In this document: positions 2,956 through 5,320 of the stretch, piece after piece
Numbering within the stretch: the first letter of the stretch is position 1
Layout of the letters: each line of letters starts with the position of its first letter
NCBI GenBank assembly: GCA_020722945.1
Contig: DYJV01000068.1
Span: 1 to 11,853, forward strand
From: Candidatus Methylomirabilis sp.
GTDB taxonomy: Bacteria > DYJV01
Direction: 5' to 3'
DNA length: 11,853 bases
Translations under genes and position numbers: made by a program
Notes under the pieces: generated by a model
What the model was told of the DNA's origin: nothing
The model's database searches: none
The model's input: only the letters and a program-made list of their open reading frames with translations

Positions 2956-3549
2956 ATGTCAAATAAATTATTTTTATTTGATATAGGGATAAGAGAAAAA
3001 TATCCTATTATCGCTGGTGTAGATGAAGCAGGCCGCGGTCCATTAGCAGGTCCAGTAGTTGCATCAGCAGTAATATTACCACAAGATTTTAATTCAGATA
3101 TAATAAATGATTCAAAAAAGCTTTCTCCATCTCAAAGGGAGAAAGCTTTTTTTTTGATTAAAGATATCGCTCTTGATTTTTCAGTTACAGCTTTAAGCAA
3201 CCAAATCATAGATAAGATCAATATCCTTAATGCTACTCTTTTAGCAATGAGAACCTCCATAGAGAAACTAAAAATATCTCCAGATACCGTAATCATTGAT
3301 GGGGACAAGCACCCTTTATCAAAATATAATGAGCAATTAATCGTAAAAGGTGATACACTTTCACTTTCAATAGCTTCAGCATCTATAATTTCAAAATATA
3401 TAAGGGATAGGTTAATGGATAATTACAGCAAGATTTACCCTTTATATAACTTTTCAAAACATAAAGGTTATCCAACAAAAGAGCATAGAGAGATGATAGC
3501 GAAGTTTGGAATCTCAAAAATCCATAGAAGAAGTTTTAGGCTTCTATAA
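2956..3549 (+). CDS. rnhB: Ribonuclease HII
   Basis: Cleaves RNA in RNA-DNA hybrids and starts ribonucleotide excision repair at single ribonucleotides embedded in DNA. The 197-residue protein has the full catalytic set: Asp23-Glu24 in GVDEAGRGPLAGPVV (21-35), Asp115 in VIIDGD (112-117) and Asp133 in VKGDTLSLSIASASIISK (130-147), plus DSKKLS (52-57) and HKGYPTKEH (169-177). ATG 2956 is the only start that retains the N-terminus. No Shine-Dalgarno is visible before it, so translation may rely on ribosomes finishing rplS 13 bp upstream. A perfect hairpin with a T-run lies inside the coding sequence (separate entry), over codons for the conserved DSKKLS region and REKAFF. Confidence 0.97.
   Translation: MSNKLFLFDIGIREKYPIIAGVDEAGRGPLAGPVVASAVILPQDFNSDIINDSKKLSPSQREKAFFLIKDIALDFSVTALSNQIIDKINILNATLLAMRTSIEKLKISPDTVIIDGDKHPLSKYNEQLIVKGDTLSLSIASASIISKYIRDRLMDNYSKIYPLYNFSKHKGYPTKEHREMIAKFGISKIHRRSFRLL
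3114..3155 (+). terminator. Intrinsic-terminator-like hairpin inside rnhB
   Basis: AAAAAAGCTTTCTCC (3114-3128) and GGAGAAAGCTTTTTT (3138-3152) are perfect 15-bp inverted complements around a 9-nt loop (3129-3137), and T residues run without break from 3147 to 3155. This is the layout of a factor-independent terminator, except that it sits about 160 nt inside an intact reading frame. The stem has five G-C pairs, all in the loop-proximal part. The complementary strand also has a run of six T after the hairpin. Structure is seen directly; termination activity is inference. Confidence 0.5.
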
Positions 3550-3552
3550 GAC

Positions 3553-3924
3553 ATGAAAATATCACGAGGGAAATTTGGAGAGATTATTGCAAAAAATTAC
3601 CTTGAAAAAAATGGTTACAAAGTATTATTTCAAAATTACAAGACAAGGTTTGGAGAAATTGATATTATAGCAGAAGAGAAAGATTTTATAATATTTGTAG
3701 AGGTTAAATATAGGACAAACCCCAATTTTGGAAAAGCAGAGGAGAGCATAAACAATTTTAAATTAGAAAAGATAAAGAAAACAGCAGAGCATTTTATCGA
3801 ATCATTCAACAAAGTAACACACAAAATCAGATTTGACATCATTGCAATCAATAACTTCAGCCATTTAGAGATTAACCATTACAAAAATATCATTTTAGAG
3901 GGGGATATACAGTATGATAGATAA
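3553..3924 (+). CDS. yraN: YraN/UPF0102-family endonuclease-like protein
   Basis: A 123-residue member of the UPF0102 (YraN) family, which has a restriction-endonuclease-like fold; its cellular role is not well established. Visible family motifs are GKFGEIIAKNYLEKNGYKVL (residues 6-25), RFGEIDIIAEEKDFIIFVEV (32-51) and the following KYR. Acidic residues and lysine in GEIDII and FVEVKYR form the predicted nuclease-like site. It starts 3 bp after rnhB with no strong ribosome binding site and overlaps the next gene by 11 bp. The rnhB-yraN pairing is common in bacteria and hints at a role in nucleic acid repair or recombination, which is inference. Confidence 0.93.
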   Translation: MKISRGKFGEIIAKNYLEKNGYKVLFQNYKTRFGEIDIIAEEKDFIIFVEVKYRTNPNFGKAEESINNFKLEKIKKTAEHFIESFNKVTHKIRFDIIAINNFSHLEINHYKNIILEGDIQYDR

Positions 3925-5320
3925 AAGTATTTTCAGGGAGTATGACATAAGGGGTATTATTGACCAGAATCTTAATGAAAAAGCAGTAAGATTAATTGCA
4001 AGAGCTTACGGAAGCCATTTATACAAGAAATCATCCCCCAAAAATCAACTCACAATTTCAATAGGAATGGACGCAAGGGTATCTTCAGAAAAATTTTTTA
4101 AAATAATGGCTGATGAATTTTCAAAGATAGGGATAAATGTGATTGGTATTGGATTATGTCCCACACCACTTCTCTATTACTCACTATTTTCAATTAAAGA
4201 TTTAGATGGTGGAGTAATGATTACAGGGAGTCACAATCCTCCAGAATACAATGGTTTTAAAATTTGTGTCGGCAAAGACACTATTTATGGTGAGGAGATA
4301 CAAGAGCTATATCAGATAATAATTAACAACAAGATGGTATCAGATAGAGAGCAAAAGGGAGATATCTCATATTTTGATATAAAAAAATCTTATATAGATT
4401 ACATCACTAAGCAGTTCTCACATCTTAATGGATGTTTCAAACAGAGCATAGTCATAGATGCAGGCAATGGCGTTGGAAATCTTGTTGCACCTAAAATATT
4501 ACGAAATCTTGGGTTTAATGTTATAGATATATTCTCAGAACCTGATGGAAATTTTCCCAACCACCACCCTGACCCAACAGTTGAGAAAAATTTAGAAACA
4601 CTCAAAAAAAGAGTTTTAGAGAGTAACGCTATACTCGGTATAGGTTATGACGGTGATGCTGACAGAATCGGTGCGATTGATGAGAATGCAAATATAATAT
4701 GGGGGGATCAACTTATGATTCTCTATTCAAGGGATATTCTTGAAAATAGTAAAGGTGCAAAAATAATAGGTGAAGTAAAATGTTCACAAACAATGTATGA
4801 TGACATCGCTAAAAATGGTGGCATACCGATAATGTGGAGAACTGGTCATTCACTTATAAAAAACAAATTAAAAGATGAGAAAGCCGCTATTGCAGGTGAG
4901 ATGAGTGGGCATATCTTCTTTGCTGACAGATATTTTGGTTATGACGATGCTATATATGCAACTCTGAGATTAGTAGAGATAATTTGCAAAAAAAAGGTAA
5001 AATTAAGTCAACTCCTTCAAAATATTCCAAAAACTTTTATAACAGAGGAGATACGATTTAATTGCCCTGAAGATAAAAAATTTTCTATCCCTGAAAAGTT
5101 AAAAGCTCTTATAATTGAAGACAAAACTTTAAAGAACCAAATTAAGGATATTATAACAATCGATGGAGTTAGAATTATATTTGAAGATGGATGGGGACTT
5201 GTGAGGGCAAGCAATACTCAATCTGTTTTGGTTATGAGATTTGAGGGGAACAGTTTAGAGAAGAGGGATTTTTACAGAACTGTAATAGAAAATAAGCTAC
5301 AAATATTAATGCAAAATTAA
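3914..5320 (+). CDS. manB: Phosphomannomutase/phosphoglucomutase (AlgC-like)
   Basis: Interconverts hexose 6-phosphates and 1-phosphates, supplying mannose-1-P or glucose-1-P for nucleotide sugars, lipopolysaccharide and exopolysaccharide. The 468-residue protein carries all four landmarks of the alpha-D-phosphohexomutase family: phosphoserine loop TGSHNPPEYNGFKI (104-117) with Ser106, Mg2+ loop GYDGDADRIG (244-253) with Asp246, Asp248 and Asp250, sugar-binding GEMSGH (328-333), and phosphate-binding RASNTQS (431-437), where many relatives have proline instead of the last serine. The N-terminal FREYDIRG (7-14) is typical. GAGGGGGA just before ATG, inside yraN, is the likely ribosome binding site; the 11-bp overlap suggests coupling. 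Substrate preference between mannose and glucose cannot be decided from motifs, so the gene symbol is provisional. Confidence 0.93.
   Translation: MIDKSIFREYDIRGIIDQNLNEKAVRLIARAYGSHLYKKSSPKNQLTISIGMDARVSSEKFFKIMADEFSKIGINVIGIGLCPTPLLYYSLFSIKDLDGGVMITGSHNPPEYNGFKICVGKDTIYGEEIQELYQIIINNKMVSDREQKGDISYFDIKKSYIDYITKQFSHLNGCFKQSIVIDAGNGVGNLVAPKILRNLGFNVIDIFSEPDGNFPNHHPDPTVEKNLETLKKRVLESNAILGIGYDGDADRIGAIDENANIIWGDQLMILYSRDILENSKGAKIIGEVKCSQTMYDDIAKNGGIPIMWRTGHSLIKNKLKDEKAAIAGEMSGHIFFADRYFGYDDAIYATLRLVEIICKKKVKLSQLLQNIPKTFITEEIRFNCPEDKKFSIPEKLKALIIEDKTLKNQIKDIITIDGVRIIFEDGWGLVRASNTQSVLVMRFEGNSLEKRDFYRTVIENKLQILMQN

Follow-up and report, generated by a model that had tools for sequence, protein, structure and literature searches.

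Why should a gene for RNase HII, beginning 13 nt behind the stop codon of a ribosomal-protein gene, carry within its own reading frame a structure shaped like the end of a transcript? The question is raised by an 11,853-nt stretch of DNA from Candidatus Methylomirabilis sp. (hereafter the window), in which four codirectional genes follow one another on the plus strand: rplS (ribosomal protein L19, 2595..2942; TIGR01024), rnhB (RNase HII, 2956..3549), yraN (UPF0102, 3553..3924; PF02021, NF009150), lying 3' of rnhB, and manB (phosphomannomutase/phosphoglucomutase-type, 3914..5320; PF02878/79/80), the last of the run. From sequence comparison, we propose that the hairpin in rnhB is probably a genuine intrinsic (Rho-independent) terminator, kept by selection, that would limit transcription of rnhB-yraN-manB after rplS.

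A terminator-shaped hairpin within the rnhB reading frame

Direct reading of the plus strand confirmed the perfect 15-bp stem, 9-nt loop, and run of nine T described in the initial annotation, at 3114-3155. The left arm (AAAAAAGCTTTCTCC, 3114..3128) consists of the third base of a serine codon, the codons for K-K-L-S, and two bases of a proline codon; the loop (ATCTCAAAG) occupies 3129..3137; and the right arm (GGAGAAAGCTTTTTT, 3138..3152) consists of the third base of an arginine codon, the codons for E-K-A-F, and two bases of a further phenylalanine codon. The T9 run (3147..3155, the U tract of the RNA) shares six T with the stem. The gene was likewise found to be intact, as had been claimed, with an ORF of 197 amino acids that matches PF01351 (E 3.9e-35) and, above their cut-offs, NF000594 and NF000595; the hairpin starts 158 nt into it. 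The structure folds at -20.4 kcal/mol (z -4.3 versus dinucleotide shuffles). ORF calling was simple and the stem scanner covered perfect stems, while the terminator scanner did not report this hairpin, with its 9-nt loop, because its permitted loops were limited to 3-8 nt.

The hairpin has the features expected of intrinsic terminators, namely a stable stem with a G+C-richer core, a short loop, and a U-rich tract (U9) directly 3' of it, and its energy and shape resemble those of the intergenic terminators of its host, of which AAAAGAGCTTTCATCTAAAAGTGAAAGCTCTTTT is an example. Unlike these, it is embedded in conserved protein-coding DNA, where its arms encode the KKLSP and REKAFF of RNase HII. 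A 572-kb sample of the genome, including the window and comprising 551 ORFs, contained 31 intergenic terminator-shaped sites, among which the rnhB stem would take 8th place by energy. Within the same sample, it was the strongest intragenic terminator-shaped site, and the scan of all 551 ORFs revealed no other truly intragenic sense site close to it. The runner-up (L084) proved to be intergenic, lying just past the TAA stop of a mis-extended ORF. An 11-bp hairpin with a T-rich tail was also observed in L145 (14480-14511), 49 nt into a 333-nt ORF, and may be a further intragenic site or the result of a mis-called start. Elsewhere in the window, the rimM frame contains a long imperfect hairpin (893-929; 15 pairs, G-T allowed) followed by a T-rich stretch, and trmD (1297-2577) forms a single ORF to which a second domain of the RNA methyltransferase type is fused (PF01746 + PF09936).

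Read from the minus strand, the same structure is a hairpin followed by T6, given that A6 and T9 flank the stem, and it might act as a bidirectional or antisense terminator halting minus-strand transcription into rnhB. No plausible minus-strand gene lies nearer than about 4 kb, with other plus-strand genes in between, the longer T run belongs to the sense strand, and many host terminators are likewise two-sided, all of which makes a role on the minus strand extremely improbable.

Codon choice and conservation of the stem

The amino acids were initially thought to constrain only one arm of the stem. This was incorrect: RNase HII conserves KKLS as well as RExxF, and in an A+T-rich code the two come close to being complementary, so that the protein motif predisposes both arms. 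When codons were shuffled over 121 rnhB genes, 79 of the 154 hits fell in the same 60-nt bin as the hairpin, and the DSKKLSxxxRExxF motif therefore predisposes this site. In an A+T-rich genome, DSKKLSxxxRE(K)AFF tends to be encoded as AAAAAGCTTTCT...AGAGAAAGCTTTTT; the hairpin could thus be a by-product of coding, held open by ribosomes. Consistent with such a coincidence are the concentration of shuffle hits at this place and a shuffle hit rate for rnhB of 0.13%, roughly 4 times that of the average sampled gene; in the window, a comparable hairpin with a T tail was obtained in 60 of 56,814 codon shuffles of the whole gene (~0.1%). Nonetheless, the perfect pairing was unexpected by chance, as the initial annotation had held. 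Exact enumeration for S-K-K-L-S-P and R-E-K-A-F-F under host codon usage (from ~170,000 codons of the genome) gave P = 1.6e-4 for 15 of 15 pairs.

We then compared the locus within its phylum, using two genomes, that of the window (G000) and G001, which represent two families of one order. Gene order is the same in G001 (rplS-rnhB-yraN-manB), and its RnhB is 69% identical to that of the window. No stem-breaking synonymous change, which had been set beforehand as the observation that would speak against a selected stem, was found in this relative: 30 of 30 stem bases are retained, together with the T9 run, while the loop reads TAAACAACG instead of ATCTCAAAG, with the CCA/CCT, TCT/AAA, and AGG/CGG substitutions confined to loop bases. 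Across five genes, codon identity at identical residues was 47-57%, approximately the expectation from independent codon usage, and the two genomes are thus near codon saturation. G001 was not picked for its hairpin, and with the codon usage of that genome a perfect stem has a probability of 1.6e-5; that of all 10 stem codons agreeing by codon usage alone is 7.7e-4 (~1e-3). Identical-codon runs about as long are found elsewhere (6 in yraN versus 5 at the hairpin), and the case therefore rests on pairing and not on identity alone. The stems of both genomes (n = 2) are the same, with no compensatory pair, so that no covariation is visible and the comparison speaks for conservation of structure rather than providing compensatory proof. 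On the sequences compared, the rnhB stem is kept beyond coding constraint, and with the stem kept while the loop and the remaining rnhB sequence diverged, a selected terminator-like element is likely.

These data also weigh against coding coincidence. A perfect stem is improbable in each genome, it was retained at near codon saturation, and z is -4.4 in G000 and -7.5 in G001, compared with a mean of -0.2 for other rnhB genes. We therefore regard the hairpin as unlikely to be a by-product of the protein sequence.

Alternatively, the hairpin could mark a processing site or structural 3' end, guarding an rplS mRNA end that Rho or RNase had generated, or give rise to a small RNA derived from the ORF. 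The distance of ~170 nt from the rplS stop codon to the hairpin, the presence of Rho, and the functional ORF-internal RNAs known in E. coli (PMC7815308) are consistent with such a role. Conservation extends to the U tract, which is needed for termination and not for protection, and an Rfam search of the window gave no family match; such a function is quite improbable. A search of viral contigs for the stem pattern gave no match, and a search of genome contigs returned only rnhB genes of other phyla.

Transcriptional slippage sites likewise combine a hairpin with a homopolymeric run immediately behind it (PMC5009743). In that paper, which cites Penno et al. 2015, slippage-stimulating stem-loops are described as sharing features with intrinsic terminators, and the stimulation of polymerase slippage by nascent RNA stem-loops could make the rnhB site a programmed one, with mRNAs one T longer or shorter encoding a truncated RnhB. 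Gain or loss of a T would lead to a stop at 68 or 66 amino acids in G000, and immediate stops are also met in G001. Such stops are reached quickly anyway in shifted frames of A+T-rich DNA, and the 66-68-amino acid fragment would lack most of the enzyme; unlike known slippage sites, the hairpin has no evident useful shifted-frame product. Moreover, T9 runs are not rare in the sampled coding sequences (9 in 572 kb), whereas the stem is rare. Programmed slippage is accordingly a highly improbable function of this site.

Terminator-shaped hairpins in other rnhB genes

To place the hairpin among its homologs, we scrutinized 119 rnhB genes retrieved from 386 genomes by a codon-pattern search. A stem longer than 11 bp at this place occurred in G000 and G001 only. 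In the other A+T-rich rnhB genes (n = 62) the stem reached at most 8 bp, a further observation at odds with coding coincidence. Most of the ~120 rnhB genes, including some located directly behind rplS, are without the hairpin, which counts against the terminator reading and rules out that rnhB genes generally carry it.

Using a broader definition (8 or more Watson-Crick pairs and a T-rich tail), terminator-shaped hairpins were detected at the same place in 6 of 121 rnhB genes with flanking sequence, belonging to three lineages, versus a mean of 0.13 genes and a maximum of 2 in 1,199 runs of the codon-shuffle null. All six begin 96-110 nt past the codons for GVDEAGRG, and no terminator-shaped hairpin was found in 239 kb of neighboring coding sequence. 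In another phylum, both species of one genus (G010 and G464; L013 and L147) carry an independent 11-bp hairpin, GGCCGAAAAGC...GCTTTTCGGCC then TTATTTTT, located 110 nt past the GVDEAGRG codons in an rnhB with rplS directly upstream. About 15 consecutive codons are identical there between the two species, compared with 69% codon identity overall; among 51 further pattern matches in this phylum, no hairpin was found outside the genus. The third lineage, family f15, has a weaker 8-bp hairpin (AGCCTCTC...GAGAGGCT) in the rnhB codons for S-L-S and R-E-A, which is kept in three genera (L019, L042, L043, L047) and includes G-U pairs in two of these genes, L042 and L043. Roughly one gene's length separates rplS and rnhB in this family, and its hairpins depart only mildly from the codon-shuffle expectation (z about -2), which is in agreement with coding coincidence.

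The pairing registers of the three lineages (i+j = 48, 44, and 62) differ, and the hairpins are therefore independent; homology of those in other lineages to that of the window is ruled out on the same grounds. With the window's phylum, chosen for its hairpin, set aside, two lineages remain versus 0.13 expected (P ~0.01, a Poisson estimate), and recurrence across lineages is for this reason suggestive only. Other phyla thus have unrelated terminator-shaped hairpins at these codons, which suggests that the motif of a protein can predispose its gene to evolve internal terminators. A wider proposal, which is possible though doubtful, is that rnhB is a recurrent coding-embedded terminator site. 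Here, DSKKLSxxxRExxF, being near-self-complementary in codon space, would have given rise to terminators repeatedly where rnhB trails rplS, with different pairs each time, and these might uncouple ribosomal-protein output from the downstream genes and be opened by translation of rnhB.

A putative role in transcription behind rplS

The initial annotation reported no clear ribosome binding sites for rnhB and yraN compared with a strong one for rplS, and our scan for Shine-Dalgarno sequences agreed. In the window, rplS has a strong site (AGGAGG), rnhB no match, yraN 3 nt (AGG), and manB 4 nt (GAGG); in G001, the rplS site is AAGGAGG, and the match of rnhB does not exceed 3 nt. No terminator was found in the rplS-rnhB gap of either genome. 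Rho was found in both, so that polarity could be handled without the hairpin, which argues against the terminator reading.

If the hairpin is an intrinsic terminator, polymerase leaving the ribosomal-protein genes, which are presumably strongly expressed, would transcribe the stem and U9 and be released at the U9 in a fraction of passages, which would reduce the RNA made from rnhB, yraN, and manB. Such a terminator would have been put inside rnhB with no space left between this gene and rplS. We infer that termination at this hairpin would occur in the cell. More speculatively, a ribosome that trails polymerase closely within rnhB might keep the hairpin from forming; read-through could then be set by translation, as the missing Shine-Dalgarno sequence of rnhB hints, and a translation-dependent attenuator is plausible. 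The intragenic attenuator originally proposed is thus retained in part. Stem conservation in G001, the strong Shine-Dalgarno sequence of rplS and its absence from rnhB, and the missing gap terminator make a selected terminator-like element likely, while no antiterminator stands out. In a search upstream of the left arm, pairing was no better than with permuted codons, and the one candidate, a GAGAAA/TTTCTC pairing present in both folds, was rejected on finding that permuted codons pair equally well. An antiterminator structure is not required by every attenuator.

A literature search on rnhB with premature termination or attenuation returned no report, while related arrangements are known from other systems. 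Suppression of intrinsic terminator hairpins by translating ribosomes is established (PMC5021804), and candidate intragenic intrinsic terminators in E. coli rsxC and narY have been tested for firing on uncoupling (PMC5021804). Premature RNA 3' ends within E. coli ORFs are common (PMC7815308). In common with these E. coli sites (PMC7815308, PMC5021804), the rnhB hairpin would be an ORF-internal terminator, presumably held in check by translating ribosomes. It differs from them in its place in the gene that immediately follows a ribosomal-protein gene, and in its conservation between families of one phylum; the E. coli sites have experimental data, whereas the rnhB hairpin is known here as sequence. 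With translation-coupled attenuators such as pyrL-pyrBI, it would share prevention of the terminator by a ribosome close behind polymerase, although it has no leader peptide, identified sensing pause site, or demonstrated ligand, and the terminator is carried by the gene itself. In the ABC importer operons of cellulolytic Clostridia, internal terminators are reported to set stoichiometry (PMC9045158). As would be the case behind rplS, incomplete termination downstream of a strongly expressed gene lowers the distal genes there, and the rnhB hairpin differs in sitting in the coding sequence of the next gene.

If the hairpin acts as we infer, the same piece of DNA would hold two conserved messages, an enzyme motif and a transcription terminator, and would provide a clean case of RNA function shaping synonymous codon choice. 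It would also point to a simple rule, if true, by which a ribosomal-protein operon may be insulated from the genes behind it without intergenic space.
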